Origin: Desulfuromonadales bacterium
GTDB taxonomy: Bacteria > Desulfobacterota > Desulfuromonadia > Desulfuromonadales > Geopsychrobacteraceae
Reading direction: 5' to 3'
Assembly: GCA_019429255.1 (NCBI GenBank)
Contig: JAHYIY010000019.1
Span: 1-54,432 of the forward strand
DNA length: 54,432 bases
The stretch's first letter is position 1. Each line of letters starts with the position of its first letter. A program made the position numbers and the translations under genes. The notes beneath the pieces were generated by a model. That model was not told where the DNA came from. It worked only from the letters and a program-made list of their open reading frames with translations, and searched no databases. Positions 39,748 to 54,432 of this stretch are shown here, one piece after another.

Positions 39748-40104
39748 GGGGGTGTCAAGGTTTCGACGGGGGAAGGAAACGAAGTGCCGCATGCCGGAGT
39801 GGGCTGGCTCCGAAAAAAAGCCCAACTTAACTAAACGCAGACTCTGACGTTAGTTACGCATTAGCAGCTTAATAGCTGTTACGTCCTGTTAATCATCGCC
39901 TGTGTGGCTGATGGGACGTTAATTGCAGCGGGCTGGTTTTGAAGAAAGACTGTGGCTTCGAAACGAGACTAAAAGCAGACTCGCCTGATCCGTATCCTGT
40001 CTGTAGGAGCCTGATCAAGGTTAAATTCAATTTACAGACTAAGCATGTAGAAGCCTTACGCGGATAGCTTTCGGACGCGGGTTCGATTCCCGCCACCTCC
40101 ACCA
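39748..40104 (+). ncRNA. ssrA: Transfer-messenger RNA (tmRNA)
   Basis: 5' acceptor GGGGGTG (39748-39754) pairs with CACCTCC before the discriminator A and the encoded CCA (40102-40104). The 3' T-arm reads GGTTCGATTCC. The tag reading frame begins at the resume codon GCA (39837-39839) and gives ADSDVSYALAA before TAA at 39870. It includes GTCAAGGTTTCGACGGGG near the 5' end, as in other tmRNAs. Length is 357 bases. The 3' end is the junction to an accessory region, and ssrA 3' ends are common integrase targets. Confidence 0.97.
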
Positions 40105-40116
40105 TTTAGAAAAGAC

Positions 40117-40165
40117 AAACCCGTCTCTCTGGGGCCATTCTCCTTAGGTGACGGGTTTTCTTTTT
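40117..40165 (+). terminator. Intrinsic terminator of ssrA
   Basis: AAACCCGTC (40117-40125) and GACGGGTTT (40150-40158) form a perfect nine-pair stem followed by TTCTTTTT. It begins 12 bases after the CCA end of the tmRNA. Confidence 0.85.
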
Positions 40166-40428
40166 CCCCTTGTTGATAAAGGGTTTGCGCCCGTTTCACA
40201 TCTTTCCAAAGCACCTCTTCGCACCATCGATTCTCCCCATCCTCCCGCCTTTCTTTCTCTGTTTGGCCCCTGATTCTCTGGCATCGAAGGACCAAGTCCG
40301 AAGCTCGTCCGGAAAGCTACATCCTTGATTGATATGGGTTTGCGGCTGATTGCCGTTCTTGGCGGTTGTCTTAGGTCATCGTTCGATGCCGCAACCGGAC
40401 GTTTTTTTCGAAATCGCCTGCCTCGGCC
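40166..40428. other. Accessory-side intergenic DNA after ssrA
   Basis: Non-coding stretch between the tmRNA terminator and the first accessory ORF. I see no integrase, no second copy of the tmRNA 3' end and no structured element. Confidence 0.4.
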
Positions 40429-40959
40429 ATGAAAAGAAGCGTGGTCAACTCCGGTTTCCTGCCCCCCAAAGAAGAAAAGCCGACGATGATGGTCGGCTCT
40501 CTGGGGCGGTCTCCGGTCCGGTCGTCAGTCGGTTACAACGCCGATTATCTGTTCCGCCGTCTCGGACTGCCGCGCTACGCCGAGGTGGACAGCGAGCTGA
40601 TCTTCCGTCTGGCCGACCGCTTCGCGCCAGAAGGCCCCATCGACCAGGAGGGCCTGAAGAAGGCGCTTGCCCTCTGTCGCGGCCAAATGAGCGCCGTGCT
40701 GACCTCACGCCTCGACCCCGGCACCATCACCGTGCTCAAGGGCAACAAGCCACTCTGCCTGCGCATCCACCGCCAGCACCGGGTGGTGCTCTACGCCTCG
40801 GACGACGCCTTTATTGACTTTGCCGTGGTCAACGAGAAGGGCTGGCGCGAGCTGGAGGTTCCGCCCATGACCATGCTCACCATCCGCCACGAGGATGTGC
40901 GGGCTATCGAAAACAGCGAATTCCGCTTCATACCCCAGGAGCGCAAAGGGACGAGCTGA
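40429..40959 (+). CDS. Probable truncated class II glutamine amidotransferase-like protein
   Basis: 176-residue frame whose middle (AEVDSELIFRLADR, then AVLTSRLDPGTITVLKGNKPLCL and HRVVLYASDDAFIDFAV) resembles the C-terminal half of class II amidotransferase domains, where DTExxxxLI and GNxPLxxG..VVxAS motifs occur. The N-terminal catalytic Cys and the NGxIxN element are absent, and the first 30 residues look unrelated, so the frame is likely a 5'-truncated remnant. High GC, unlike brxA/brxB. Its stop abuts a palindromic arm starting at 40958. I do not assign an active function. Confidence 0.5.
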   Translation: MKRSVVNSGFLPPKEEKPTMMVGSLGRSPVRSSVGYNADYLFRRLGLPRYAEVDSELIFRLADRFAPEGPIDQEGLKKALALCRGQMSAVLTSRLDPGTITVLKGNKPLCLRIHRQHRVVLYASDDAFIDFAVVNEKGWRELEVPPMTMLTIRHEDVRAIENSEFRFIPQERKGTS

Positions 40960-41392
40960 TTGATGATTTCGGATTGCGGACTGCGGATTACTTGCGGGAG
41001 CGGGCGGTTTTTATGGAGGCGACGACCATGGAAAGGATTTCATTTGCTTCGTTTTTCAGATCGGTCAAGCGCTTCTCGTTCATTAATCCGGCTTCGGCGA
41101 TCAGCTCCATCCAGTAGATGGATTCATCGCATTCTTCCTCGACGATGGCCATTTTAGCGATGAAGTCGGCAGGGGATTTGGCGCGGCAGGAGGCCCGATA
41201 GTTCGCGCCAACCGAGGTGCCACAACGAAGCAACTGGTTTCCAATCACTTTCGCGGTCTGGTTTTTCGGCAACGCTTCCACCAACCGGATCACCCTGATC
41301 GCGAAAGTCTTGGTTCTGTTTTTGAACTCATCAGCATCCATGGAGGCAACATATGACATTTTCAATCAATCCTCAATCCGAAATCCCCAATC
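40958..41392. repeat. Inverted repeats bracketing the four-helix-bundle gene
   Basis: Left arm 40958-40989 (GATTGATGATTTCGGATTGC...) and right arm 41363-41392 are imperfect inverted copies (shared block GATTTCGGATTG). Between them lies only the four-helix-bundle gene, giving a 435-base cassette. The right arm also supplies the N-terminus of the following gamma-glutamylcyclotransferase frame (SINPQSEIPNQ), so the cassette seems to have been inserted between or into older genes. Confidence 0.65.
40988..41359 (-). CDS. Four-helix-bundle protein (23S rRNA intervening-sequence family)
   Basis: About 123 residues, all helical. VIRLVEALPKNQTAKVIGNQLLRCGTS, VGANYRASCRAKSPADFIAKM and EEECDESIYWMELI are the consensus blocks of the S23/'four helix bundle protein' family, first noticed in intervening sequences of 23S rRNA genes and later found scattered in genomes. 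Biochemical role is unknown. The start is ATG at 41359 or at 41341 (MDADEFKNRT); the shorter form fits most relatives. It is the only gene inside the inverted-repeat cassette 40958-41392, oriented opposite to its neighbours. No reverse transcriptase is near, so a DGR Avd role is not supported. Confidence 0.88.
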   Translation of the reverse strand: MSYVASMDADEFKNRTKTFAIRVIRLVEALPKNQTAKVIGNQLLRCGTSVGANYRASCRAKSPADFIAKMAIVEEECDESIYWMELIAEAGLMNEKRLTDLKNEANEILSMVVASIKTARSRK

Positions 41393-41909
41393 AGCAATTG
41401 TTGCGGCTCTTCGTCTACGGCACCCTGAAACGGGGCTACTGGAACCATCAACGCTTCTGCGCCCAGGCCCGCAGCATCGAACCGGCCGTGGTCTGGGGCA
41501 GGCTCTACCATCTCCACGCCGGGTTCCCGGCGCTCGAAGTGCCGGAGGGCCTGATCCTGGCCCGAGGCACCGCCAACCCGCTGGCCGACGCCCGCAGACA
41601 ACAAGAGATCGGCACACCACGCTTCGGCCGCCCGACCGGCGATTGGGATCTGATCCATGGGGACCGTTTGCCGGGAAAACGATTCACTGGATCGTTTTAT
41701 GACCCGGCTCACCCTTCATCGACCCGCAGCGCGACTTACCGCCCAACGACCGGCTGGAAGGCTTTCGGCCCGGCGGGCACAGCATGTACCAGCGAGTGAT
41801 GATGGCGGTGCTGAGCGGGCACACCTCGATTACGGCTTGGACCTACCGGATGCCGCGCATCGACACCGGGAGCAGGCTCGGATCAGGCGTCTGGCATCGA
41901 CCTTGTTAG
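41353..41909 (+). pseudogene. Frameshifted gamma-glutamylcyclotransferase-like gene
   Basis: Frame 41353-41799 encodes LLRLFVYGTLKRGYWNH, FPALEVPEGLILARG and GDWDLIHGD, the AIG2/gamma-glutamylcyclotransferase N-terminal part. The expected continuation (FIDPQRDLPPNDRLEGFRPG, then SMYQRV and AWTYRM) occurs in another frame from about 41717 to the TAG at 41907. A frameshift therefore lies between about 41665 and 41717, where a 37-base hairpin is also present. The first 13 residues of the frame derive from the palindromic arm, so the original start is lost. It is not expected to give an intact product. Confidence 0.7.
41671..41707. repeat. Hairpin at the frameshift of the cyclotransferase remnant
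   Basis: AAAACGAT (41676-41683) and ATCGTTTT (41691-41698) form a perfect eight-pair stem; CCGGG (41671) and CCCGG (41703) extend it outward. It coincides with the point where the protein's reading frame changes, so it may be an inserted palindrome, although a single-base slip must also be involved to restore the frame seen downstream. Confidence 0.5.
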
Positions 41910-41940
41910 CAAATAATCGGCTTTAATCGGTAAAGATCGT

Positions 41941-41968
41941 TTGACAACCGGCAGCCAATTCGTATATT
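41941..41968 (+). promoter_or_regulatory. Promoter of the BREX operon
   Basis: TTGACA (41941-41946) and TATATT (41963-41968) are separated by 16 bases: one hexamer is perfect, the other five of six. About 100 bases of leader follow before the HTH gene, and no other strong promoter is visible from there to brxC. Confidence 0.7.
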
Positions 41969-42066
41969 TTCAAGTCATTTGAATGGGAGAACAGCGCCTG
42001 TTTTCCCTTACTTCGCCTCTGGCGAGCACATGGTTTAACCCCAATCGCCCACGAGGAGCTTGAGAA

Positions 42067-42270
42067 ATGGCCGAGATGGAAGACCGCTGGTTATCGATAA
42101 GTGAGATCTGCAAGTACCTCGGGGTCAGTAATGACACCGTGTACAAGTGGATTGATAAACATGAAATGCCCGCGCATCGCATGGGCCGCCTCTGGAAGTT
42201 CAAGAAGGATGAAGTGGACGAATGGGTCAAGGCCGGTGGCGCAGCCGAGCATTACAAAAAGGAATCCTGA
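42067..42270 (+). CDS. Excisionase/MerR-type HTH DNA-binding protein
   Basis: 67 residues. RWLSISEICKYLGVSNDTVYKWIDKHEMP is a MerR-like/excisionase helix-turn-helix, and GRLWKFKKDEVDEWVK is the wing that ends this fold. Such proteins regulate or act in excision. It is preceded by GAGGAG eight bases before the ATG and by the promoter at 41941, and brxA starts 6 bases after it, so it is probably the local regulator of the BREX operon. Excisionase activity is possible but no integrase is in view. Confidence 0.85.
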   Translation: MAEMEDRWLSISEICKYLGVSNDTVYKWIDKHEMPAHRMGRLWKFKKDEVDEWVKAGGAAEHYKKES

Positions 42271-42276
42271 CCAAGA

Positions 42277-42891
42277 ATGAGTAACGACAGATACAGCATG
42301 TCATTTACAACGGGCAGTCTCTTTCACCGCGAATCGGTGAAGCTGGCCGCGCTGTATCTTGATCTTGGCGACTGGAACTCTGTTCGAGACAAGGTCATCG
42401 CAGAAAACTTACTACAGACAAGAACACTGAATACGCTCAAACGAGTCTGCCGCGAGATCATCTCTCGGCTTAGAACGATGAGCCCAGGTGAACTTGAATT
42501 CCTTGTTGAGGGCAGCCACCAAGAGCAGGCCTATCTCCTGTGGCTCGCCGTTTGCCGTCGGTACAGATTCATCGCTGATTTTGCCGTCGAAGTGCTTCGA
42601 GAGCGCTATATCACGCTGAAAGCTGATCTGACCTTTGATGATTTTGATTCCTTCTTCAACCGGAAATCCGAATGGCATTTGGAACTGGATGAGATCACCC
42701 CGGCGACGCGAAGCAAATTGCGGCAGGTCTTATTCAAGATACTTCGAGAGGCGGATCTCTTAGCGGCCAACAACATGATAAACGCTGCCATGCTCAGCCC
42801 GAGATTGTTGGATGTGATCCATCGTGGCAGCCGCAGGGATGTTTCGTACTTCCCTTTATTTGAATCCGATCTGAAGGGGATGGCGAAGTGA
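42277..42891 (+). CDS. brxA: BREX protein BrxA (DUF1819)
   Basis: 204-residue helical protein of the DUF1819 family, the first core gene of type 1 BREX phage defence; structural work on relatives shows a DNA-binding fold. Signatures seen: MSFTTGSLFHRESVKLAALYLD, LLQTRTLNTLKRVCREIISRL, FLVEGSHQEQAYLLWLAVCRRY and the C-terminal LSPRLLDVI. More AT-rich than the flanking DNA. It ends in a GTGA overlap with brxB, so the two are translationally coupled. Confidence 0.9.
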   Translation: MSNDRYSMSFTTGSLFHRESVKLAALYLDLGDWNSVRDKVIAENLLQTRTLNTLKRVCREIISRLRTMSPGELEFLVEGSHQEQAYLLWLAVCRRYRFIADFAVEVLRERYITLKADLTFDDFDSFFNRKSEWHLELDEITPATRSKLRQVLFKILREADLLAANNMINAAMLSPRLLDVIHRGSRRDVSYFPLFESDLKGMAK

Positions 42892-43499
42892 CAGCAGATA
42901 TAGCCAGAATGCCAATGCAAGACAGGTTTCAGCATCTCTTTGCTGTGATCTCGGGCCAGCGTTTTCTCAACAAGCAAGGTCTCGGTAACGAGGTTCCGTT
43001 TTTCATCTGTCCCTTCAAGCCGGAAGATTCCGTTGAAATGGAGCGGCTCCAGCGTCAGCTGGTCAATCGCCTTGAGCAGGCCGGTGTCCGGATACTGGAG
43101 ATCAACCTGTACGATCTTTCGATAGAAATCCTCAAAGAGCGTGATATCTGGAACCAGATTGTCGAAATGGAGGATTCTGTCTCCAAAGAGCAGCTCAAAG
43201 AGTTATTGCAAGGCGTGCTGGACCCCGAAGCGCATCTTGTTCCGGCCATAGCAAGCAAGCTGGCAAGCACGGATTTCGAGGTTCTTTTTCTGTCCGGCGT
43301 TGGCGAGGTGTTCCCCTACATCCGCTCGCACAACGTTTTGAATAATTTGCAGAGCACGGCGAAAGAAAAGCCGACCGTCATGTTTTTCCCAGGAGCCTAC
43401 ACCCACTCCCTGGAGTCAGGAGCATCGCTCGATCTCTTCGGAAGGCTGCATGACGACAAGTATTACCGGGCATTCAACATCTTTCACTGCGAAGCATAA
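42888..43499 (+). CDS. brxB: BREX protein BrxB (DUF1788)
   Basis: 203-residue protein of the DUF1788 family, second core gene of type 1 BREX; exact role unknown. DRFQHLFAVISGQRFLNKQGLGNEVPFFICPF, EVLFLSGVGEVFPYIRSHNVLNNLQ and VMFFPGAYTH are typical. GTG start at 42888 overlaps the brxA stop. It lies 14 bases before brxC. Confidence 0.88.
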   Translation: MTADIARMPMQDRFQHLFAVISGQRFLNKQGLGNEVPFFICPFKPEDSVEMERLQRQLVNRLEQAGVRILEINLYDLSIEILKERDIWNQIVEMEDSVSKEQLKELLQGVLDPEAHLVPAIASKLASTDFEVLFLSGVGEVFPYIRSHNVLNNLQSTAKEKPTVMFFPGAYTHSLESGASLDLFGRLHDDKYYRAFNIFHCEA

Positions 43500-43513
43500 A
43501 CGAGGGAAGCGTG

Positions 43514-46500
43514 ATGACTCTTAAGACCATTTTTAACAAGCCAGTTGACCGCCCGATTGAAGGGGTTATCAAAGCTGACGATGAAGCAAGTCTTCGCCTC
43601 GAAATTGAAGAATACGTGCTGACCAATGAAGTCGAGAAGCGGCTTGAGTCTTTCCTGGATGCCTACAACAACTACGAAGGTGCCAACGGCGTTTGGGTTT
43701 CCGGTTTCTTTGGGTCCGGTAAATCCCACCTGTTGAAGATGCTGGCGCTCTTGCTCGAAAACCGGCAAATCGACGGGGCCTCCGCACTTGACTTGTTCCT
43801 GCCCAAGTGTGGCGACAACGAAATCCTGCGCGGTGATCTCAAGCGAGCGGTCGCCATCCCGTCGAAAAGCATTCTGTTCAATATCGACCAGAAAGCGGAC
43901 GTCATCAGCAAGACCCAGATCGATGCGCTCCTCGCAGTCTTCGTCAAGGTCTTTGACGAGATGTGCGGTTACTACGGCAAGCAGGGGCACATCGCCCAGT
44001 TCGAGCGCGACCTCGACAGCCGTGGCCTCTACGAACAGTTCAAATCCGCCTATGAATCCATGGCAGGCAGGACATGGCAAAAAGGCCGCGAACAGGCCCT
44101 GCTGGAGGCGAAAAACATCGCCAAAGCCTATGCCCAGGCAACGGGTGGCGACGAGCCGTCAGCCATGGGAATACTGGATAAGTACCGCAGCCAATACCGG
44201 GTCTCCATCGAGGATTTTGCTGAACAGATAAATGCCTATATCGAACGGCAATCGACCCAGGAAAATCAAAAAGAATTCCGCTTGAACTTCTTTGTTGATG
44301 AGGTCGGTCAGTACATCGCTGAAAACGTCAAGCTGATGACCAACCTCCAGACCATTGCCGAAAGCCTGGCCACCAAATGTCGAGGCCGCGCATGGGTCGT
44401 CGTGACCGCCCAGGAAGATATGGGGACAGTCGTGGGTGAGATGGGCAAACAACAGGGTAACGACTTTTCAAAAATTCAGGCACGATTTGCTAACCGCATG
44501 AAGCTGACCAGCGCCGATGTGGCAGAGGTCATTCAAAAGCGCCTGCTGACGAAAAACGAAGAAGGCGTTCGTCTGCTGTCGGACATTTATCACGCGCAGT
44601 CCAACAACTTTAAGACCCTATTCGACTTTGCGGATGGGTCCCAAACCTACCGGAACTTTCAGGATCGGGATCACTTCATTCAAAGCTACCCGTTTACCCC
44701 GTACCAATTCTCACTGTTCCAGTCGGCCATTCAGAATTTGTCGCAGCATAACGCCTTCGAGGGCAAGCACAGCTCGGTGGGCGAACGCTCTATGTTGGGT
44801 GTGTTCCAGCAGGTGGCGATCCAGATCGGGGATCATGAAATTGGCCAGTTGGCGACCTTTGACCTGATGTTCGAGGGGATTCGCACCGCGCTGAAATCCA
44901 ATATCCAGCGAGCCATCATTCAGGCGGAAAACCATCTTGACGGTCCCTTCGCGATCCGGCTGTTGAAAACGCTCTTCCTGGTCAAATACGTCAAGGAGTT
45001 CAAGCCGACTCTTCGGAATCTGTGCGTCCTGATGCTGGACGGCTTCAATCAGGATTTGCCTGCTCTGCGAAAGCGTGTCGAAGAAGCCCTCAGCCTTTTG
45101 GAACAGCAGACCTATGTGCAGCGCAATGGCGAGATCTACGAATACCTCACCGACGAGGAAAAAGACGTCGAACAGGAAATCAAGAACACCGAGGTGGAGT
45201 CGTCAGACGTTTCCGCCGAGCTTGAGAAGCTCGTTTTTGACCACGTCATCAAGCATCGGAAGATTCGTTACGACGAGAACGGCCAGGACTACCCGTTCTC
45301 CAGAAAGCTCGATGATCGTTTGCACGGGCGGGAGTACGAGCTGGCTATCCATGTCATCAGCCCGTTCCATGAAAACGCCGAAAGTGAGTCCATCCTGCGG
45401 ATGCAGAGCATGGGCCGGGACGAGCTGCTGGTCCTGATGCCTGCGGATGAACGCCTGGTTCGCGACATCTTGATGTACAAGCGGACTGAAAAATACATCC
45501 GCCAGAACATTTCGATCACACAGCAGGAGGCGGTGAAACGCATCCTGACCGACAAGGGTTTCCAGAACCGGGAACGGTATGCAGAGCTCCAGCAGCGCGT
45601 TCAAAGCCTGATGGGTAAGGCCAAGTTATTCATGGCAGGTGCCGACATCGAAATCGGTTCCGAAGATGCGCAGACCCGGGTGCTGCGCGGGTTCCATGAA
45701 CTCGTCTCTCGTGCATATTCGAACCTTCGTATGCTGCGCGGCATCACCTACACCGAGAACGACATCGCCAAATGCCTCAAGCACTCACAGCAAGGATTGT
45801 TTGGCAACGATGCCACCTCCCTTGCCGAGTCCGAGCAGGAGCTTTTGGCCTTCATCCAGAGCAATAACCGGGGCGGCGTGCGTACCACGCTGAAAAACCT
45901 GCTGGAGAAATTCGAGCGCAAACCCTACGGCTGGTACTACGCCGCCGTGCTTTGCACCTTGGCCAACCTGTGCGCTCGCGGCAAGGTCGAGGTCCGCACC
46001 GACGGCAACCTGCTGGAAGAGGACGAACTGGAACGGACGCTGCGCAACACCCATGGCCACGGCAATGTAGTGCTGGAGCCCCAGGTCGAATTTACCGCAT
46101 CGCAGGTCCGCGCCCTCAAGGAGTTCTTTGAGGACTTTTTTGATGCCCCGCCCCGCGCCAGTGAAGCGAAGGCGCTCGGCAAGGAAACCGGTACCGCGCT
46201 CCAGGATCTGACGCATCAGCTCACCCCGTTGGCGGCACAGGCATCCCAATATCCGTTCCTGAATGTGCTGACACCGGTGCTTGAGAAGCTCAAAGAGCTG
46301 ACCGGCAAGCCCTATACCTGGTATCTGACCGAACTCACCCGCCAGGAAGACGCGCTGCTCGACATGAAAGAAAGCGTCATCGATCCTGTCCGCAAATTCA
46401 TGAGCGGGCCGCAGAAAGGCATCTTCGATAGCGCCCGCAAGTTTGTCCAAAGCCAGGAGCCCAACTTCGCCTACATAGATAGCGACGAAACCGCTCAGGT

Positions 46501-47050
46501 GGTTGCCAGCTTGACCGATCCGGAATGTTTCAAGGGCAACCGCATGCAGCAGGTGAAGACCCAAGTCGAAACCCTGCAGGAGAAGGTCACGGCCCAGATC
46601 GAGGCCGAGATTGCCAAAGCCAAGGAGACGGTCGCCGCTCTTAAAGGCCGTCTCTGCGGCATGGCTGAATTCGGCGCACTGAACGGCGATCAGCAGGAGC
46701 AGATCACCCGCCCGTTCAACGAATTCAACGTGGCTATCGAGCGCCAGAAGCTGATTGCCGTTATCCGCGACACCCTGCGCCGGTTTGAGGAAAGCGACTA
46801 TCTGCAGTTGCTAGCGCAACTGAGTGGGCAGCGGGCAGTGGGCAGTGATCAGCAGGAGCGTCGTGACGAACAGATAAAGAGTGGTCAAACAAGCAAAACG
46901 ATCCACTACCCACTGGTCACTATCCACTCGCTGAAGGTTCCTTTCAGCGCTGCCTGGCTGGCCAACGAGAATGATGTGGAGCGATACCTGAAATCCATGC
47001 GCGAAGCGTTGCTGGAAGAAATCCGCAACGGGAAGCGCATCCAAATTTAG
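43514..47050 (+). CDS. brxC: BREX P-loop ATPase BrxC (DUF499/6079-type)
   Basis: 1178-residue ATPase, the third BREX core gene, needed for exclusion of phage DNA in studied systems. Start MTLKTIFNKPVDRPIEGVIK; Walker A at residues 64-71 (GFFGSGKS); a candidate acidic Walker B in FRLNFFVDEVGQYI; then long helical and coiled-coil stretches. ATG at 43514 is preferred to the GTG one codon earlier. Residues about 1104-1140 (positions 46820-46934) are an in-frame palindromic insertion not expected in the family. The C-terminus resumes as VPFSAAWLANENDVERYL. Length without the insert is normal. Confidence 0.93.
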   Translation: MTLKTIFNKPVDRPIEGVIKADDEASLRLEIEEYVLTNEVEKRLESFLDAYNNYEGANGVWVSGFFGSGKSHLLKMLALLLENRQIDGASALDLFLPKCGDNEILRGDLKRAVAIPSKSILFNIDQKADVISKTQIDALLAVFVKVFDEMCGYYGKQGHIAQFERDLDSRGLYEQFKSAYESMAGRTWQKGREQALLEAKNIAKAYAQATGGDEPSAMGILDKYRSQYRVSIEDFAEQINAYIERQSTQENQKEFRLNFFVDEVGQYIAENVKLMTNLQTIAESLATKCRGRAWVVVTAQEDMGTVVGEMGKQQGNDFSKIQARFANRMKLTSADVAEVIQKRLLTKNEEGVRLLSDIYHAQSNNFKTLFDFADGSQTYRNFQDRDHFIQSYPFTPYQFSLFQSAIQNLSQHNAFEGKHSSVGERSMLGVFQQVAIQIGDHEIGQLATFDLMFEGIRTALKSNIQRAIIQAENHLDGPFAIRLLKTLFLVKYVKEFKPTLRNLCVLMLDGFNQDLPALRKRVEEALSLLEQQTYVQRNGEIYEYLTDEEKDVEQEIKNTEVESSDVSAELEKLVFDHVIKHRKIRYDENGQDYPFSRKLDDRLHGREYELAIHVISPFHENAESESILRMQSMGRDELLVLMPADERLVRDILMYKRTEKYIRQNISITQQEAVKRILTDKGFQNRERYAELQQRVQSLMGKAKLFMAGADIEIGSEDAQTRVLRGFHELVSRAYSNLRMLRGITYTENDIAKCLKHSQQGLFGNDATSLAESEQELLAFIQSNNRGGVRTTLKNLLEKFERKPYGWYYAAVLCTLANLCARGKVEVRTDGNLLEEDELERTLRNTHGHGNVVLEPQVEFTASQVRALKEFFEDFFDAPPRASEAKALGKETGTALQDLTHQLTPLAAQASQYPFLNVLTPVLEKLKELTGKPYTWYLTELTRQEDALLDMKESVIDPVRKFMSGPQKGIFDSARKFVQSQEPNFAYIDSDETAQVVASLTDPECFKGNRMQQVKTQVETLQEKVTAQIEAEIAKAKETVAALKGRLCGMAEFGALNGDQQEQITRPFNEFNVAIERQKLIAVIRDTLRRFEESDYLQLLAQLSGQRAVGSDQQERRDEQIKSGQTSKTIHYPLVTIHSLKVPFSAAWLANENDVERYLKSMREALLEEIRNGKRIQI
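46820..46934. repeat. In-frame palindromic insertion inside brxC
   Basis: Left arm 46822-46852 (AGTGGGCAGCGGGCAGTGGG...) and right arm 46900-46933 (GATCCACTACCCACTGGTCA...) are imperfect inverted copies. CTGA occurs at 46820 and again at 46931, exactly 111 bases apart, so removal at these repeats would leave the frame intact as LLAQLKVPFSAAW. The insert encodes 37 residues rich in Gln/Ser/Arg, unlike the surrounding helical protein. Confidence 0.7.
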
Positions 47051-47059
47051 GGCCCGTCG

Positions 47060-48733
47060 ATGACTGAAAACGAACGCCAGATTCCCGATCTCATTCAGCA
47101 AGGCGAAAGCCTGGCCCTAGAGTTCAAGAGTGACCTCAAATGCCTTCCTGACCGAGAGTTGGTTGCAGCCGTGGTGGCCATGGCGAACACCGAGGGCGGC
47201 GACCTGCTGCTCGGCGTCGAAGATGATGGCACCCTTACCGGCCTGCATCCGAATCACGCAGACGTTGCCGGGCTACCCGCGCTGATCGCCAACAGAACCA
47301 ACCCTGCAATAGCGGTCCGGGTGGAAGCCATCGAGGTTTATGGACAACACATCGCCCGCATCTCGGTACCAAAGTCCCGTCAGCTGGTTTCCACCTCCGA
47401 GGGGTTGTTGCAGCGCCGTCGACTCAAACTGGACGGCACCCCGGAGGCGGTCCCGTTCTACCCCCATGAATTCATTCAGCGTCAGTCCGGCATGGGACTC
47501 ACCGACCCATCGGCCATGCCCTTCGAACATATCGCGGTGGAACAGCTCGATCCGCTGCAACGGCTGCGCATTCGCAATGCCATCAAGAAATACGGCGGAG
47601 ACCAGAGCTTGCTGCCTCTAGCTGATGAGGAGTTGGACGGCGCGTTAGGACTGGTGGTCAACACCCGTGGCCAACGAAATCCAACGGTGGCGGGCCTGTT
47701 GCTGCTTGGCAACGAGACTCTGTTGCGTCAGCACCTGCCGTCCCACGAAGTCGCCTTTCAGGTACTACGCGGTACGGATGTCTTAGTGAACGAGTTCTTT
47801 CGCAAACCGTTGTTAGAGACCTTTGAAGACGTGGAGCTGATGTTCAGGGCTCGGGTCAGTGAGGAGGAGATCCAGGTCGGGCTGTTTCGCGTGCCCATCC
47901 CCAACTTTGACCGCCGTGCCTTCCGGGAGGCCTTCGTCAACGCTCTGGTGCATCGGGACTACAGCACTCTCGGCGCCGTTCACGTCAAGTTGGATGACGA
48001 CGGACTCACCATCAGCAGTCCAGGAGGATTCGTCGACGGGGTAACCCTGGAGAATCTGCTGGTCGTCGACCCTCGCTCCCGCAATCCATTGCTGGCCGAT
48101 ATCATCAAGCGCATCGGTCTGGCCGAGCGCACCGGTCGCGGCATTGACCGTATCTTTGAAGGGATGCTCCGCTACGGGCGTGCAGCGCCCGATTACTCCA
48201 TGTCATCCCCCTACACCGTGTCGGTCGGAATGGCGGCGACCGATGCCGACCTCGAATTCCTGCGGATGATCCTTCAACGAGAAGACCGAACCGGTCGCGC
48301 TATGCCCATCGACAGCCTGATTGTCCTCTCTCGGCTAAGGGAGGAGCGTCGCCTGACCACTGCCGACCTTGCCACTGCAGTGCAAAAGCCGGAAAGCGTT
48401 GTCCGTGCCAATCTGGAAAAGCTGGTGGAGGCGGGCCTGGTAGAAGCCCATGGCGCCAGCCGAGGCCGAACCTACACTTTGAGCGTCAAAGTCTACCAGC
48501 GCTCAGGACAAAATGCCGCCTATGTGCGCCAGGCCGGTTTTGACCCCATCCAGCAGGAGCAAATGGTCCTCAGCTATATCGCAACACACGGCAGCATCAA
48601 GCGCGCCGACGTCATGGAGCTGTGCCGCCTTACCGGCGATCAAGCATATAAGCTGCTGGCCCGGCTGAAGAATCGCGGAGAAATCATGCAAATCGGCGAC
48701 CTGAAGGGGGCCTTTTATGAGCGCAAGCGTTAA
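47060..48733 (+). CDS. AlbA_2/RecG-C-like ATP-binding regulator within the BREX operon
   Basis: 557-residue protein. N-terminal AlbA_2 (Schlafen-type) domain, residues about 10-135 (ESLALEFKSDLKCLP, ANTEGGDLLLGVEDDG), then a RecG C-terminal-like GHKL ATP-binding part with FREAFVNALVHRDYSTLG, LTISSPGGF and AERTGRGIDRIFEG, then winged-helix segments (LTTADLATAVQKPESVVRANLEKL). Such proteins are often called 'ATP-dependent DNA helicase RecG-like' but lack helicase motifs, and act more plausibly as transcription regulators. It is not a BREX core gene, and follows brxC by 9 bases. Operator-like repeats lie just after its stop. Confidence 0.8.
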   Translation: MTENERQIPDLIQQGESLALEFKSDLKCLPDRELVAAVVAMANTEGGDLLLGVEDDGTLTGLHPNHADVAGLPALIANRTNPAIAVRVEAIEVYGQHIARISVPKSRQLVSTSEGLLQRRRLKLDGTPEAVPFYPHEFIQRQSGMGLTDPSAMPFEHIAVEQLDPLQRLRIRNAIKKYGGDQSLLPLADEELDGALGLVVNTRGQRNPTVAGLLLLGNETLLRQHLPSHEVAFQVLRGTDVLVNEFFRKPLLETFEDVELMFRARVSEEEIQVGLFRVPIPNFDRRAFREAFVNALVHRDYSTLGAVHVKLDDDGLTISSPGGFVDGVTLENLLVVDPRSRNPLLADIIKRIGLAERTGRGIDRIFEGMLRYGRAAPDYSMSSPYTVSVGMAATDADLEFLRMILQREDRTGRAMPIDSLIVLSRLREERRLTTADLATAVQKPESVVRANLEKLVEAGLVEAHGASRGRTYTLSVKVYQRSGQNAAYVRQAGFDPIQQEQMVLSYIATHGSIKRADVMELCRLTGDQAYKLLARLKNRGEIMQIGDLKGAFYERKR

Positions 48734-48744
48734 TTTATGCACAT

Positions 48745-48774
48745 GGCGCAAATATATGCGCCCATATATGCGCC
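48745..48774. promoter_or_regulatory. Operator-like repeat cluster before the AAA ATPase gene
   Basis: GGCGCA (48745) and TGCGCC (48757) form an inverted repeat around AATATA. The unit ATATATGCGCC occurs twice with a 12-base period (48752 and 48764). This lies in the 75-base gap between the AlbA_2 regulator and the ATPase gene. Period and symmetry suggest a protein-binding site, possibly for the upstream regulator. Confidence 0.5.
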
Positions 48775-48808
48775 GGGCGTAAATCCGCAAAGGAAAAAGG
48801 ATTCAAAT

Positions 48809-49873
48809 ATGATCGAGCGTCTTGAACTGAGAAACTTCACGGTCTTCACTGGCCTTACTCTGGATCTCTCGCCCAAGATCAACGTGATCATCGGCGAGAA
48901 CGGCACCGGCAAAACCCATCTGCTCAAGGCGGCGTATGGGCTTTGCGCCGGTGCGCCCCTGTTTAAGAACAAGCCCGTGACCAGCGACGATGAGCTTGAA
49001 GCGGCGCTGACCGCCAAGCTGTTGCGCCTTTTCATGCCGCTGGACGACAAGCTCGGCAAGATGCATCGCCAGGGCGCGATCGACCAGGCCTATCTGTCGG
49101 CCCGGTTCGCAGGGGGGCAGAAGATTGCCGCGACCTTTTTCAACAACTCAAAGGCGCTGGCCGTCCAGGATCGCGCCAACTACGAGCAGTACCAGGCCGA
49201 GGCAGTTTTCATCCCGACCAAAGAAGTCCTCTCGTTCATGAAGGGGTTCAACAGCCTGTATGAGAAATACGGGCTCTCCTTTGACCAGACCTATCAGGAC
49301 ATCTGCCTGCTGCTGGATCTCCCCGAGGTCCGTCCGGAAACCCTGCACGAAAAATCCAAATGGGCCATGGCCGAGATCGAAGGCATCTGCGGCGGCCGTT
49401 TCGTTTTCTATGGTGGCGGCAAGGTCACCTTCAAAACCGAGAATGCCGAATACTCTGCCAACTCCATGGCCGAAGGCTTCCGCAAGGCGGGAATACTCTC
49501 GCGTCTTCTGGAAACCGGCGCGATCCAGCCCGGTGTCAGCGGTCCGCTGTTCTGGGACGAGCCCGAATCCAACCTGAACCCCAAGCTGATGAAGCTGCTC
49601 GTGCAGATCCTGCTGGAGCTGTCACGAAACGGCCAGCAGATCATTCTGGCGACCCACGACTATGTGCTGCTCAAGTGGTTCGATCTGCTCATGGACAAGG
49701 GCAAGGATGACCACGTGCGCTTCCATAGCCTGTACCGCGATGCGGAAACTTCCGAGATCAAAGTCGCCTCCACCGAGGACTACCTAAAAATCACGCCGAA
49801 CCCGATTGACGAGGCCTTTGGCTTTCTCATCAACCAGGAGATCGAAAACGACATGGGAGGCCTCGGCAAATGA
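48809..49873 (+). CDS. AAA ATPase (ABC/SMC-like, AAA_21 type)
   Basis: 354-residue ATPase. MIERLELRNFTVFTGLTLDL is the typical start of the AAA_21/OLD-like group; Walker A at residues 29-36 (GENGTGKT); Walker B at 247-251 (LFWDE) with PESNLNP after it; histidine switch H283 in LATHDYVLLKW. ATG at 48809 with AAAGGA upstream is preferred to a further 24-codon extension. Overlaps the next gene by 4 bases. Such ATPases pair with nucleases in several defence systems; here the partner would be the ExK-bearing protein. Confidence 0.85.
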   Translation: MIERLELRNFTVFTGLTLDLSPKINVIIGENGTGKTHLLKAAYGLCAGAPLFKNKPVTSDDELEAALTAKLLRLFMPLDDKLGKMHRQGAIDQAYLSARFAGGQKIAATFFNNSKALAVQDRANYEQYQAEAVFIPTKEVLSFMKGFNSLYEKYGLSFDQTYQDICLLLDLPEVRPETLHEKSKWAMAEIEGICGGRFVFYGGGKVTFKTENAEYSANSMAEGFRKAGILSRLLETGAIQPGVSGPLFWDEPESNLNPKLMKLLVQILLELSRNGQQIILATHDYVLLKWFDLLMDKGKDDHVRFHSLYRDAETSEIKVASTEDYLKITPNPIDEAFGFLINQEIENDMGGLGK

Positions 49874-50409
49874 AGATCGTTGAGGCTGACGGTTTTGAAT
49901 TCCGCTTTGAGGATGCCCTGGACGCATTCGTCTTCGACGAGACGGACAGCACCAAACCGACATTCCACGGAGCGCCCATGAAAGGCGTCGACATCGTCGC
50001 CGAGTTCGCTGAGGCCTATGTCTACGTGGAACTGAAGGACTATGACGACCCGTCGATTTATGACGTCCTCGGCGCGGCGACCGAAGACGAGACAAACTCG
50101 CGGCAAGCCAGCTTCAAGTGGCTGAAGAACTACCTGAAGTACAAATTCCGGGATTCCTACCTCTACCGGCATGCCGAGCAGAAGGTGGAAAAACCCGCCC
50201 CCCCCGTCTGCCTGATCACTTTTGACAACGCCTTGAACAGCCGGATGCAGAAAGCCCTGAAACAGGAGCTGCCGGTGGGCAAAGCATCACGCTGCTGGGT
50301 CCAGGCCCTGGCCACAAGCTGTCATGTCGTCAACCTGGACAAATGGAATGAAAACTTCCCGAAGTGGCCGGTCACTCGCCTGGCCGCTGCTGCAGCCGGA
50401 GGAGCCTGA
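49870..50409 (+). CDS. Small protein with PD-(D/E)xK-like signature, partner of the ATPase
   Basis: 179-residue protein without clear family. D41 followed by YVYVELKDYDDP (E54-x-K56) fits the core of PD-(D/E)xK nucleases: an Asp at the end of one strand and ExK in the next hydrophobic strand. It lies in a 4-base overlap with the ATPase gene and 4 bases before pglX, so the pair is transcribed inside the BREX operon. A nuclease or DNA-binding role is inferred; no homologue could be checked, and a DUF4435-like identity was considered but not seen. Confidence 0.55.
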   Translation: MKIVEADGFEFRFEDALDAFVFDETDSTKPTFHGAPMKGVDIVAEFAEAYVYVELKDYDDPSIYDVLGAATEDETNSRQASFKWLKNYLKYKFRDSYLYRHAEQKVEKPAPPVCLITFDNALNSRMQKALKQELPVGKASRCWVQALATSCHVVNLDKWNENFPKWPVTRLAAAAAGGA

Positions 50410-50413
50410 ATAG

Positions 50414-53400
50414 ATGGAAACCGCAAAACTCAAAAAATTCGCTCAGTTCGCCCGGCGCAGCCTGCTGGAGCAGGTCTCCGCCAAGCTAAAACTGGTGCTG
50501 GCTGAAAACAGCGCCGCCCGGCGTGAACGTGCCGAGGCCATCAAGAAACTGGAAGAGGCGATCAAGGGGCACGGCAAGGAACAGGTCATCGAACGAGTGG
50601 CCTACATCTGGTTCAACCGCTTCTGCGCCCTGCGTTTCATGGATGTGAACCGCTACACCCGCATCGGCGTGGTGTCTCCCGCCGAGGGACAGTTCCAGCC
50701 CGAGATTCTGGCCGAGGCCAAAATGGGGCACATCGACGAAGAGACGGTGCACGACAAGGTCCGGCAGCAGATCTTCGCCCTGCTCGACGGCAAAGCACCC
50801 AGCCGCGATCCACAGGGCGAGGCTTACCGCCTGCTGGTGGTCGCCGCCTGCAACTTCTGGAACAAGGCAATGCCGTTCCTGTTCCAGCGCATCGACGACT
50901 ATACCGAACTGCTGATGCCCGACGATCTGCTCTCGGGCAACTCCATCCTCGCCTATACCCGCGAGGCGATGACGCCGGATGTTTGTGGAGTGGCTAGTGA
51001 CCAGTGGCCAGTGGCCAGCAAAGACAACACTAGCCACCAGTCACTAGCCCCTAGCCACTCAGCCGCCGCAGGCGGAGTAGAAGTCATTGGCTGGCTTTAC
51101 CAGTTTTACATCTCCGAAAAGAAAGATGAGGTGTTCGACGGCCTGAAGAAGAACAAGAAGATCACGCCCGAGAACATCCCCGCCGCTACCCAGCTTTTCA
51201 CCCCGCACTGGATCGTGCGCTACCTGGTGGAAAACTCCCTCGGCCGCCTGTGGCTGCTCAACCGTCCCGGCTCGAAGCTGATTGAGCAGATGGACTACTA
51301 CATCAAGCCCGCCGATGGGGATCAAGTCGCGGAGACTGATTTTCTGCGCATCGCCAAGCCGGAAGAGATCAAAATCTGCGACCCGGCCTGCGGCTCCGGC
51401 CACATGCTCACCTATGCCTTTGACCTGCTCTACACCATCTACGAGGAGGAAGGCGTTGATCCCGCCGAAATCCCGGAGAAGATACTCACCCACAACCTCT
51501 ACGGTATCGAGATCGACGAACGCGCCGGGGAGCTGGCCGCCTTTGCCCTGACCATGAAGGCCCGCGCCAAGCAGCGCCGGTTCTTCAACAAGGGCGTCAA
51601 GCCGAACATCTGCGTGCTGGAGAACGTCCATTTCGACGAGGGCGAGCTGAAGAGCTACATGGATTTTGTCGGGCGCGACCTGTTCACCGCGCCACTGCAA
51701 ACCACCCTGCGCCAGTTCGAGGAGGCCGACAACTTCGGCTCCCTGATCCGTCCGGATGTCACCGACGTCGACGGCATGCTCAAGATCCTAGAGTCAAAGA
51801 ACGTCTCTGGGCACCTGTTTATCAGCATGACCCACCAGAAAGTGCTGCAATCCCTGCGGCAGGCTGATTACCTCAGCCCTAAATACCATGTAGTGATTGC
51901 TAATCCTCCGTATATGGGAAATAAAGGCATGAATGGCCGATTGGCCGTTTATGTTCAAGATAATTATGAACTTGCGAAATATGACCTGTTTGCATCATTC
52001 ATTGATCGCAGCTTTGAATTGATACAAAAGAGAGGTTTTGCTGCTCTGGTAACAATGCAGAGCTGGATGTTCACCCATCGCTATCATGCATTCCGTCTCA
52101 ATTTATATGAAAAATGCAGCATCGAAGCCATGTGTCACATGGGGAATATGGTTATGGGGATTGCATTTGGTACCAGCGCAACAGTTTTCAAAACCTCACA
52201 TGATACAAAGAAAGCAGGCGGGTACTGCTATGTGGAGATGGATGACATCGACGAGATCACAAACAAGCCTAAAAAATTCAAAAGAATAGCTAAGTGTAGC
52301 ATCAACGACTTCCTGACAATTCCAGGTGCTCCAGTCGTATATTGGGCTAGCACGAGCGTCCGATCTTTGTTTTCTAACAACGCATGCATAGAAGATTATT
52401 TTGAAACAAGAGAGGGGCTTGCTACAGCAGATAACGACAGGTTTGTTAGATATTGGTCGGAAGTGTCAGGTAGCGCTGTCGGATTTAACTGCAAAAACTT
52501 AGATGAAGCCTCTGAATCCGAGAAAAGATGGTTCCCTTATGTCAAGGGAGGAGCCTTTAGAAAATGGTCAGGAAACAACGAGTTAATTGTTGATTGGGAA
52601 AATGACGGTGATCGAGTTAGGAACAACATCGACCACAATACGGGAAGGATTCGATCTCACAATTACAACGGAGACTATGCATTTCGTAAAGGGTTCACTT
52701 GGTCAGGACTTTCAAGTGGTGGCTTCTCGGTTAGACATGTACCCGGCGGGTTTATGTTTGATGCAAAAGGCCCGATGGGTTTTCCAAAGGATGAATGTGG
52801 TCTTGGGTTTGTAGAGGGTTTTCTAAACAGCAAAATAACCGCATTCTTACTCGAAATGCTAGCACCGACTATGGACTTTAAGCTTGGCCACGTCCTAAAA
52901 CTGCCGCTCAAAAAGGAAAACAGTTACTCCGAGATACAAAAAGATGCTGAAAGGCTCGTTCATGCATCGAAATCAGACTGGGATTCTTATGAAACCTCCT
53001 GGGATTTCACCAGCCTGCCACTCCTGAATCCCGACTACCGCCAGCAAACCCTGAAGGCCACCTTCCAGAAACTCCGCGCCCACTGGCGGGAGATGATGCT
53101 GGAGATGCAGCGGCTGGAGGAAGAGAACAACCGCATCTTCATCGACGCCTACGGCCTGCAGGATGAACTAAAGCCCGAAGTACCGCTGAACGAGATTACC
53201 CTGACCTGCAACCCGTATTACCGTTACGGAAAAGAGGAACCACGAATAGACACGAATAAACACGAATTAAAAGAAAGCATTAGTGTGAATTCGTGTTCAT
53301 TAGTGGTTCAAAAAGAATTTCCCATTGACCCCGACTTGGAAGATCGCTTGCTGGCCGACACCATGCGGGAGCTGGTCTCCTATGCCGTGGGTTGCATGTT

Positions 53401-54184
53401 CGGCCGTTATGCGCTGGACAAGCCGGGGCTAATCCTCGCCAATCAGGGCGAGACCATCGAGGATTATTACAAGAAACTACAGGAACCACGAATTGACACC
53501 AATGGACACGAAGGAAAAGACAAAGACAACATTAGTGTTGATTCGTGTTCATTAGTGGTTCAACCCTCTTTCCCGGCGGACAACGACAACGTCATCCCCA
53601 TGCTCGACGGAGACTGGTTCACCGACGACATCGCCGAGCGCTTCCGCAAGTTCCTGCGCGTGGCCTTTGGCGATGAGCACTACGAGGACAACCTCCGCTT
53701 CGTTGAGCAGGGCCTGAACATCAAGGGCAAGCGTAACTACGGCATCCGCGACTACTTCCTCGGCGAGTTCTACACCGACCATGTGAAGCGCTACAAGAAG
53801 CGGCCCATCTACTGGCTGTTCTCCAGCCCCAAGGGAAGTTTCAACGCGCTGATCTACATGCACCGCTACCGCCCGGATACGGTCAGCGTGGTGCTCAACG
53901 ACTATCTGCGCGAGTTCCGCACCAAGCTCACCTCCCACAAGAACCATCTGGAGGCGGTCAGCATCAGCGCCAGCAGCAGCCAGAGCGAAAAGACCAAGGC
54001 CCTGAAGGAGATCGAGAAGATCACCAAGATGATCGCCGAGATGGAGGAGTACGAGCGCGAAGTACTGTACCCGCTGGCCACTGAGCAGGTGGAGATCGAC
54101 CTCGACGACGGCGTGAAGGTCAACTACCCCAAACTCGGATATGCATTAAAGAAAATACCGGGACTCGATGCCAAGGAAGACTGA
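50414..54184 (+). CDS. pglX: BREX adenine-specific DNA methyltransferase PglX
   Basis: 1256-residue methyltransferase that marks host DNA at an adenine in a non-palindromic site, the self-recognition element of type 1 BREX. Motif I is at residues 322-332 (CDPACGSGHML), motif IV at 497-500 (NPPY). The region about residues 491-857 is noticeably more AT-rich and probably contains target-recognition sequence. Three in-frame palindromic insertions (near residues 192-220, 940-966 and 1024-1050) account for about 82 residues. KLKKFAQFARRSLLEQVSAKL starts the protein. Two of the three stop-codon bases belong to the next palindromic arm. Confidence 0.92.
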   Translation: METAKLKKFAQFARRSLLEQVSAKLKLVLAENSAARRERAEAIKKLEEAIKGHGKEQVIERVAYIWFNRFCALRFMDVNRYTRIGVVSPAEGQFQPEILAEAKMGHIDEETVHDKVRQQIFALLDGKAPSRDPQGEAYRLLVVAACNFWNKAMPFLFQRIDDYTELLMPDDLLSGNSILAYTREAMTPDVCGVASDQWPVASKDNTSHQSLAPSHSAAAGGVEVIGWLYQFYISEKKDEVFDGLKKNKKITPENIPAATQLFTPHWIVRYLVENSLGRLWLLNRPGSKLIEQMDYYIKPADGDQVAETDFLRIAKPEEIKICDPACGSGHMLTYAFDLLYTIYEEEGVDPAEIPEKILTHNLYGIEIDERAGELAAFALTMKARAKQRRFFNKGVKPNICVLENVHFDEGELKSYMDFVGRDLFTAPLQTTLRQFEEADNFGSLIRPDVTDVDGMLKILESKNVSGHLFISMTHQKVLQSLRQADYLSPKYHVVIANPPYMGNKGMNGRLAVYVQDNYELAKYDLFASFIDRSFELIQKRGFAALVTMQSWMFTHRYHAFRLNLYEKCSIEAMCHMGNMVMGIAFGTSATVFKTSHDTKKAGGYCYVEMDDIDEITNKPKKFKRIAKCSINDFLTIPGAPVVYWASTSVRSLFSNNACIEDYFETREGLATADNDRFVRYWSEVSGSAVGFNCKNLDEASESEKRWFPYVKGGAFRKWSGNNELIVDWENDGDRVRNNIDHNTGRIRSHNYNGDYAFRKGFTWSGLSSGGFSVRHVPGGFMFDAKGPMGFPKDECGLGFVEGFLNSKITAFLLEMLAPTMDFKLGHVLKLPLKKENSYSEIQKDAERLVHASKSDWDSYETSWDFTSLPLLNPDYRQQTLKATFQKLRAHWREMMLEMQRLEEENNRIFIDAYGLQDELKPEVPLNEITLTCNPYYRYGKEEPRIDTNKHELKESISVNSCSLVVQKEFPIDPDLEDRLLADTMRELVSYAVGCMFGRYALDKPGLILANQGETIEDYYKKLQEPRIDTNGHEGKDKDNISVDSCSLVVQPSFPADNDNVIPMLDGDWFTDDIAERFRKFLRVAFGDEHYEDNLRFVEQGLNIKGKRNYGIRDYFLGEFYTDHVKRYKKRPIYWLFSSPKGSFNALIYMHRYRPDTVSVVLNDYLREFRTKLTSHKNHLEAVSISASSSQSEKTKALKEIEKITKMIAEMEEYEREVLYPLATEQVEIDLDDGVKVNYPKLGYALKKIPGLDAKED
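50987..51078. repeat. In-frame palindromic insertion in the N-terminal part of pglX
   Basis: Left arm 50988-51017 (GAGTGGCTAGTGACCAGTGG...) and right arm 51030-51060 (...CACTAGCCCCTAGCCACTC) are inverted copies. GGAGT at 50987 recurs at 51074, 87 bases away; joining at these gives VCGVEVIGWLYQFY. The insert encodes 29 residues (VASDQWPVASKDNTSHQSLA...). Sequence resembles the brxC insert (AGTGG-based arms). Confidence 0.8.
53230..53316. repeat. In-frame palindromic insertion in the C-terminal part of pglX, copy 1
   Basis: Left arm 53237-53268 (GAACCACGAATAGACACGAA...) and right arm 53279-53309 (ATTAGTGTGAATTCGTGTTC...) are inverted copies ending GAACC/GGTTC. AAAAGA occurs at 53230 and 53311, 81 bases apart; joining there gives YRYGKEFPIDPD. 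Encodes 27 residues (EPRIDTNKHELKESISVNSC...). Confidence 0.8.
53483..53565. repeat. In-frame palindromic insertion in the C-terminal part of pglX, copy 2
   Basis: Left arm 53483-53512 (GAACCACGAATTGACACCAA...) and right arm 53531-53561 (ATTAGTGTTGATTCGTGTTC...) match copy 1. AACC at 53484 and 53562 are 78 bases apart, giving KLQEPSFPADND if joined; because AACC is within the arm, the exact junction is less certain than for copy 1. Confidence 0.75.
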
Positions 54185-54214
54185 ACCACGAATGGACACG
54201 AATAAACACGAATT
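54183..54214. repeat. Palindrome arm at the start of the GxxExxY gene
   Basis: GAACCACGAATGGACACGAA... at 54183-54214 is a third copy of the left arm found twice inside pglX. No right arm follows within the visible 218 bases; instead the GxxExxY frame begins inside the arm (ATG at 54192). The right arm would be expected after that gene, beyond the window. Confidence 0.75.
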
Positions 54215-54432
54215 ATTGCTGAAGGAAGAGGTGTTCCAGATCGTGGGATGTGCCATGGAGGTGCTGAACACACTCGGGCATGGTCTCCTTGAAAAGCCCT
54301 ATGAGAATGCTCTGGTAGTCGAGTTCGGACTCCGGGGTATTCCTGTTAGTCAGCAGCAACGATTCGATGTCCGTTACAAAGACGTGAAGGTTGGCGATTA
54401 TGTCCCTGACTTGATTTCCTTCAACAAGGTGA
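54192..54432 (+). CDS. GxxExxY protein, 3' end outside the window
   Basis: 80 residues visible. GHGLLEKPYENALVVEFGLRGIPV contains the G-x-x-E-x-x-Y signature (GLLEKPY), followed by QQQRFDVRYKDVKVGDYVPDL; family members continue to a PD-(D/E)xK-like 'DLIVxxxVIxELK' end, which is beyond the window. Function is unknown; genes of this family are scattered and often patchy. The start codon and first ~8 residues (MDTNKHEL) come from the palindromic arm at 54183. Confidence 0.85.
   Translation, partial: MDTNKHELLLKEEVFQIVGCAMEVLNTLGHGLLEKPYENALVVEFGLRGIPVSQQQRFDVRYKDVKVGDYVPDLISFNKV

Follow-up and report, generated by a model that had tools for sequence, protein, structure and literature searches.

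The window analysed here, an entire contig of 54,432 bases, carries between the brxC and pglX genes of a type 1 BREX operon a two-gene unit of the catalogued HEC-02 family, consisting of an ABC-type ATPase (HEC-02A) followed by a small protein with a predicted PD-(D/E)xK nuclease fold (HEC-02B). We consider it likely that this pair is a self-contained defence module, with an ATPase sensor and a nuclease, that acts as a back-up layer within the BREX operon, probably by abortive infection. In the mechanism that we propose, the small partner would be controlled by the ATPase, which probably acts as a dimer. A cue of infection, in all probability a protein of the phage, would be sensed by the variable middle lobe of the ATPase. 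The ATPase would then activate the nuclease, and cleavage of nucleic acid, either of the host (RNA or DNA) or of the phage (DNA), would stop the infection, probably at the expense of the cell. Placement between brxC and pglX would lead to co-production with BREX, and the pair would come into play once BREX had been evaded or blocked. The roles of infection sensor and nuclease switch are ascribed to the ATPase because of the analogy with WonAB and PARIS, two systems discussed below.

On the forward strand, the gene order is brxA (42277–42891; Pfam BrxA, 6e-54), brxB (42888–43499; Pfam BrxB, 9e-43), brxC (43511–47050; NCBIfam BREX_BrxC, 1294 bits), an AlbA_2-type gene (47060–48733), the ATPase gene (48809–49873), the gene for the 179-residue protein (49870–50409) and pglX (50414–54184; NCBIfam BREX_1_MTaseX, 1439 bits), the last encoding a BREX-1 type methyltransferase. 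The type 1 core genes brxA, brxB, brxC and pglX are present in order according to Pfam, PADLOC and NCBIfam. The contig terminates 248 bases past pglX, and a search of the whole assembly, run without a positive control, yielded no match for pglZ or brxL. A small gene that starts near the end of pglX (54168–54432), and which we take to resemble a GxxExxY/PDDEXK_3 protein, is interrupted by the contig end. A 22-base repeat is located in brxC (46908–46929, reverse strand) and in pglX (50988–51009, forward strand) with three mismatches between the copies, and no such repeat was obtained in 100 shuffles. Comparison of the pglX of the window with that of one relative, L017, revealed three in-frame inserts of 26–28 residues each. 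An Rfam scan of positions 40000–54432 returned a tmRNA as its sole match.

The reading frame of the ATPase is open from 48737 (48737–49873, 378 amino acids), the start adopted in an earlier note on this DNA. Given that relatives overlap the brxC stop codon by four bases at the equivalent position, as found in 14 of the 21 relatives whose ATPase gene directly follows brxC, the true start is most likely 48809, which gives a protein of 354 amino acids and is also implied by the numbering of the Walker A lysine as K35 in the earlier note itself. We therefore rejected 48737, since relatives begin at the equivalent of 48809 and since the segment 48781–48812 is a relic of brxC. The Walker A and B motifs, described previously as intact, are indeed so: the protein contains Walker A (GENGTGKTH, with K35), the signature AEGFRK, Walker B (WDEPE, with D250 and E251), the D-loop NLNP and the H-loop H283, the full set that characterizes an ABC-type ATPase, and the 12 motif positions checked were unchanged in 51 of 51 alignment rows, that of the window included. 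The ATPase alignment A5 covers 49 relatives, L062 having been excluded by hand. Pfam matches were to AAA_21 (1.5e-18) and AAA_15 (2e-14). The structure model (pLDDT 90) matched PtuA, Rad50 and SMC heads in both Foldseek and VIA, with Z scores of 18–21 among the best 50 VIA rows, and HEC-02A is probably an ATPase that dimerizes. Septu PtuA of retron Ec78 was among the best full-length fold matches (305 residues aligned, Z 20.3), with SMC heads scoring equally. In Septu-type systems the partner nuclease is of the HNH type, and PDB titles for retron IA among the Foldseek matches of the ATPase name an HNH nuclease, whereas the small protein of the window had no Pfam, PADLOC or NCBIfam match at E ≤ 1 to an HNH or PtuB family.

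The gene upstream of the ATPase (47060–48733) gave Pfam matches to Schlafen AlbA_2, HATPase_c_4 and a winged-helix domain. The earlier note had placed an AlbA_2 regulator in the slot, and such a gene is there, but its coordinates fall outside the range that was given. Between this gene and the ATPase gene, 32 nucleotides (48781–48812, forward strand) are identical to the 3' terminus of brxC in two relatives, L016 and L017, in which brxC runs directly into the ATPase gene, and the stop codon of this relic overlaps the ATPase start at 48809. In L031, a longer relic of a brxC end follows the AlbA_2 gene and precedes the ATPase gene, whereas none was apparent by eye in L027, L028 and L030, which also carry the AlbA_2 gene. 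The simplest inference is that the AlbA_2 gene entered later, together with a new brxC end, into an operon with the order brxC–ATPase–nuclease–pglX. The possibility that the AlbA_2 gene belongs to the unit formed by the pair was rejected, and we read it as a separate module. It precedes the ATPase gene in 6 of the set comprising the window and 28 relatives in BREX context (the window, L027, L028, L030, L033 and L031, with brxC cut off in the last), and it may constitute a third layer. Identity in brxC falls over the last ~350 bases (66–71%), but we set this fall aside as a recombination signal, given that it is also seen in L022, where the AlbA_2 gene is absent. A small inverted repeat between the AlbA_2 and ATPase genes (GGCGCA-N6-TGCGCC with a second TGCGCC, 48745–48774) is perhaps an operator. 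No description of the brxC relic was found in the literature searched, the scope of which excluded most subscription papers and all preprints.

The gene for the small protein (49870–50409, forward strand, 179 amino acids) shares the bases ATGA with the ATPase gene, in agreement with the four-base overlap noted earlier for the two genes between brxC and pglX. Its motif D41...E54-x-K56 is likewise present as described: all three residues are unchanged in every one of 52 aligned nuclease rows (7 of the 58 loci, with short or broken frames, were omitted from the alignment, A4), a set in which only the conservation of E54 and K56 is free of selection because one of the two search patterns behind it includes D41, and they are also unchanged in 12 of 12 rows gathered by profile rather than by motif. 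In the AlphaFold model (52 rows; pLDDT 84, pTM 0.80), D41 immediately precedes a strand (42–45), E54-x-K56 lies within a strand (50–56) and a long helix (72–102) follows, so that the conserved D...E-x-K residues are placed on neighbouring strands as in the PD-(D/E)xK superfamily. Foldseek against the PDB gave the small subunit of R.BspD6I (E 0.016, probability 0.99) and Can2 as top matches, with none at E ≤ 0.001. Among the first 18 VIA rows, 16 were chains of BspD6I/N.BspD6I, Can2, Cdn1, BstEII, FokI or McrBC, which we take to be PD-(D/E)xK nucleases; the best of these had a Z of 6.6 (rmsd 3.8, 123 residues aligned) and the top row overall was Upx (Z 7.1), not classed by fold, and the weight of these comparisons is limited in that best Z scores of 7–8 are typical of models with no clear match. 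From the invariant D, E and K residues together with these middling fold matches, we predict that HEC-02B very likely adopts a PD-(D/E)xK nuclease fold. The search for such a fold that the earlier note had proposed thus favoured a nuclease at the level of the AlphaFold model and fold comparison, whereas a sequence profile search of the PDB returned nothing of weight. No Pfam or NCBIfam family matched the small protein at E ≤ 1.

Comparison with PADLOC-DB assigned both proteins to the same family. The ATPase matched the HEC-02A profile PDLC04213 (E 7.4e-118, residues 1–350 to positions 1–335 of 337), and the small protein matched the HEC-02B profile PDLC04229 (E 1.3e-62, residues 1–172 to positions 1–169 of 171); all nine PADLOC families that the small protein matched at E ≤ 1 are labelled HEC-02B. 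The two genes are adjacent with the ATPase first, so that the HEC-02 entry of PADLOC-DB 2.0.0 is matched near full length by both proteins and in gene order. The labels of the library are not entirely clean, given that the model PDLC04146, labelled HEC-02B, matches the ATPase. HEC stands for Hma-embedded candidate (PMC12988326), these candidates having been named in a preprint (10.1101/2024.01.29.577857) as cited there, and in the same paper antiviral activity is reported for several of them, including HEC-06. The name thus derives from Hma loci, whereas the host operon in the window is BREX. A 2026 survey of BREX (PMC12839542) reports pairs of an OLD-ABC ATPase and a PD-(D/E)xK nuclease that serve BREX loci as back-up effectors, and counts alternative nucleases in BREX loci of 594 taxa; the kind of module and the host operons are shared with the window pair, and the term 'HEC' does not occur in the text of that paper. 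Judged by sequence, the window pair is a member of the HEC-02 family, and its kind is already known; the BREX-embedded form of such pairs is at least implied by the survey. The suggestion in the earlier note that the pair may be an undescribed second layer of immunity therefore does not hold as to novelty. In the literature searched, we found no experiments on the HEC-02 pair, and immunity is suggested by the comparisons that follow.

Two characterized systems provide the closest analogies. WonAB, a two-gene operon of an OLD-ABC ATPase and a PD-(D/E)xK nuclease, confers abortive infection with translation shutdown, requires both active sites and shows nuclease toxicity only with an active ATPase (PMC12137116). 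According to its authors, ATPase sensors with partner nucleases form a family whose members differ in regions termed Insert 1/2. HEC-02 resembles WonAB in operon layout and in the predicted types of both proteins. WonAB originates from a prophage, and WonA has a C-terminal extension to which WonB is predicted to bind. In PARIS, an ATPase sensor keeps hold of a nuclease, which is triggered by a phage protein (PMC12409363). PARIS (AriA/AriB) combines an ABC ATPase sensor with a small nuclease effector, the layout proposed for HEC-02, and is found embedded in a type I BREX island. AriB is a Toprim tRNase (PMC12409363), whereas the conserved residues and PD-(D/E)xK-like model of HEC-02B indicate another fold, and no Toprim or AriB family matched the small protein at E ≤ 1 in Pfam, PADLOC or NCBIfam.

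A motif-seeded scan of the genome_contigs collection identified 58 relatives, including Pseudomonadota, Thermodesulfobacteriota, Myxococcota and one contig binned as Planctomycetota. The ATPase gene lies directly upstream of the nuclease gene in 57 of the 58, the exception (L070) starting at the nuclease at a contig end, and the two genes overlap by four nucleotides in 46 of the 57. Recurrence of the pair inside and outside BREX, together with fold matches that are best to PD-(D/E)xK nucleases if middling in score, supports the suggestion of an embedded ATPase–nuclease pair and answers the survey that the earlier note had called for. BREX context was found in 28 relatives: in 25 the pair lies between brxC and pglX genes or halves, in 2 it precedes pglX with the brxC side cut off, and in 1 it follows brxC with no pglX. 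In L025 (7144–12460), the pair lies between two PglX-matching open reading frames (600 and 581 codons), the first of which overlaps the ATPase gene by four nucleotides. The BREX hosts include a deeply diverged lineage (L033; PADLOC PDLC02489 for BrxC and PDLC02528 for PglX). For the other 30 relatives, no BREX gene was found in the sequence available around the pair with the type 1 proteins of the window and those of L033 and L017 as queries, the flanks reaching at least 4.5 kb on both sides in 11 and on at least one side in 23, with the rest being too short.

These data bear on the possibility that the pair belongs to BREX itself as an accessory component, such as a nuclease arm that BrxC or PglX recruits. 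The four-nucleotide overlap between the brxC stop and the start of the ATPase gene, seen in 14 of the 21 relatives in which the two genes are neighbours, as well as the identical brxC–pglX position in two deeply diverged BREX lineages, would fit such a role, but we judge it quite unlikely given the 30 of 58 relatives described above with no BREX gene in their stretch and given that unrelated modules also occupy the slot. The surroundings of the non-BREX copies are similarly relevant to a toxin-antitoxin or repair function, in which a RecF/SMC-like ATPase and a repair nuclease would have no anti-phage role. Such a function would suit the closeness of the ATPase fold to Rad50 and SMC heads and the presence of some stand-alone copies beside housekeeping genes, such as those for leucyl-tRNA synthetase (L061) and an M16 peptidase (L059). 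We nevertheless consider it very unlikely, in view of the patchy distribution of the family (present in 13 of the 395 phylum genomes sampled, counting its own), the occurrence of nearly identical copies in distant groups (95%, on the contig binned as Planctomycetota, a binning that may be wrong), the repeated placement inside BREX operons and the apparent local replacement of the middle lobe. A comparison of 46 nearest neighbours at 28 of the 30 non-BREX loci with PADLOC (E ≤ 1e-15) found few defence families, namely PDC-S01 (two members) and methyltransferases, an RtcR/CARF-type protein and PDC-M72A (one member each) among the matches listed (25 of the 28), and the stand-alone copies are not clearly located within defence islands. 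ATPase or nuclease frames are short or split in the non-BREX loci L045, L047, L061, L062, L068 and L071; in the 27 BREX-context loci with both genes, no ATPase frame is shorter than 340 codons and no nuclease frame shorter than 160. A scan of viral_contigs with the nuclease alignment gave 171 pattern matches and no relatives, a tblastn search of phage records gave no match, and a plasmid search gave two records at 29–31% identity.

The content of the brxC–pglX slot was surveyed in 395 genomes drawn evenly from the phylum, with that of the window among them; 13 of these genomes carry HEC-02B (E ≤ 0.001) and 25 carry BrxC (E ≤ 1e-30). For the 25 brxC-bearing genomes, 20 regions were retrieved and G000, G357 and G141 were covered by the window, L033 and L037; G212 and G304 (brxC fragments) and L103 and L114 (no brxC-to-pglX slot readable) were omitted. 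A gene is present in 13 of the 21 readable slots: HEC-02 in 6 (two of which also contain an AlbA_2 gene), an AlbA_2 gene alone in 2, HEPN proteins in 2, and an AbiLi-like/RloB pair, a PDDEXK_3 protein and a phosphatase-like protein in 1 each. The remaining 8 have no called gene, an absence that carries little weight for L107, whose pglX frame is already open at base one. The earlier view that core type 1 systems have nothing at this position is thus true of the core gene set but not of most slots in this sample. Occupation of the slot elsewhere by an AbiLi-like ATPase with RloB, HEPN proteins and a PDDEXK_3 protein fits the proposed defence role of the pair. In L105, the AbiLi-like ATPase and RloB-type genes lie at 6852–8782 on the reverse strand, inside the slot of another BREX locus. 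Salmonella PARIS occupies the same brxC–pglX slot.

The location of PARIS within a type I BREX island of Salmonella (PMC11341690) raises the further possibility that the pair guards BREX, with the ATPase sensing BREX inhibitors such as Ocr-like DNA mimics and firing the nuclease, as PARIS does. Ocr blocks BREX, and the lobe of the ATPase is variable, as a sensor might be. Many relatives lack a nearby BREX system, however, no trigger is known for the pair, and the embedded Salmonella PARIS did not respond to Ocr, so that we regard a guard function as unlikely. Given that deletion of ariA or ariB in Salmonella moreover increased defence against one phage tenfold, embedding in BREX need not mean cooperation with it.

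The middle lobe of HEC-02A (residues 42–215; 48932–49453, forward strand) varies between operons that are otherwise similar. Relative to the window, L019, L021, L023 and L028 show 79–90% identity in the C-terminal part of the ATPase (residues 238–354) and 77–89% in the nuclease, but 27–40% in the lobe. For L027 and L028, identities are 88% for BrxC, 90% for the AlbA_2 protein, 78% for both ATPase ends, 81% for the nuclease, 88% for PglZ, 65% for PglX, 70% for BrxA and 74% for BrxL, compared with 27% for the lobe; for L017 and L019, they are 91% for BrxC, 80 and 91% for the ATPase ends, 92% for the nuclease, 91% for PglZ and 72% for PglX, compared with 42% for the lobe. The lobe thus has the lowest identity in both comparisons, lower even than that of PglX, the known specificity factor. 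At the nucleotide level, identity between L027 and L028 drops in consecutive 15-codon blocks, from 82% through 62% to 23%, and recovers from 35 to 73% between adjacent blocks. Among 47 rows with both proteins, 54 pairs have a core identity of 80–85%, with lobe identity ≤40% in 15, 40–60% in none and >60% in 39; all 15 low-lobe pairs involve the same four loci and are therefore non-independent, and the split is clear only at 80–90% core identity, intermediate values being common at 75–80%. Tree comparisons gave a similar picture, with the qualification that the clades tested were named after the trees had been inspected and that long branches are present: the lobe data reject a clade of L027, L028 and L030 (p-AU 1e-61) that BrxC supports at 100, and a grouping of the four odd-lobe loci is in turn rejected by BrxC (p-AU 9e-31). 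The odd lobes remain alignable relatives of the other lobes and are not a foreign domain.

On these grounds, we prefer the reading that the lobe has apparently been replaced between otherwise similar operons. Given that a clade of these four loci is not rejected by the ATPase ends together with the nuclease (p-AU 0.551 and 0.562), it is also possible that the whole pair moved after one old replacement of the lobe; a burst of change within the lobe is another possibility. A role of the lobe as sensor is suggested by its position and variability and is consistent with the variation in Insert 1/2 among WonAB-like families (PMC12137116). We tentatively suggest, as a reading somewhat less likely than not, that the lobe is an exchangeable sensor cassette: BREX operons may keep the nuclease and ATPase core and replace the lobe by recombination, and may in this way direct the back-up layer towards new triggers from phages, in the manner in which PglX lets BREX redirect its methyltransferase. 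Section 35 of the BREX survey (PMC12839542) makes no mention of exchange of the ATPase lobe, and lobe exchange within HEC-02 was not found in the literature searched, with the same exclusions as above.

Nested second layers in BREX have already been catalogued. The brxC relic shows one route by which modules join the brxC–pglX slot. A constant nuclease combined with an apparently replaced ATPase lobe in close operons amounts to a natural swap experiment, and, if the lobe is the sensor, exchanging this segment between two environmental alleles should move phage specificity.
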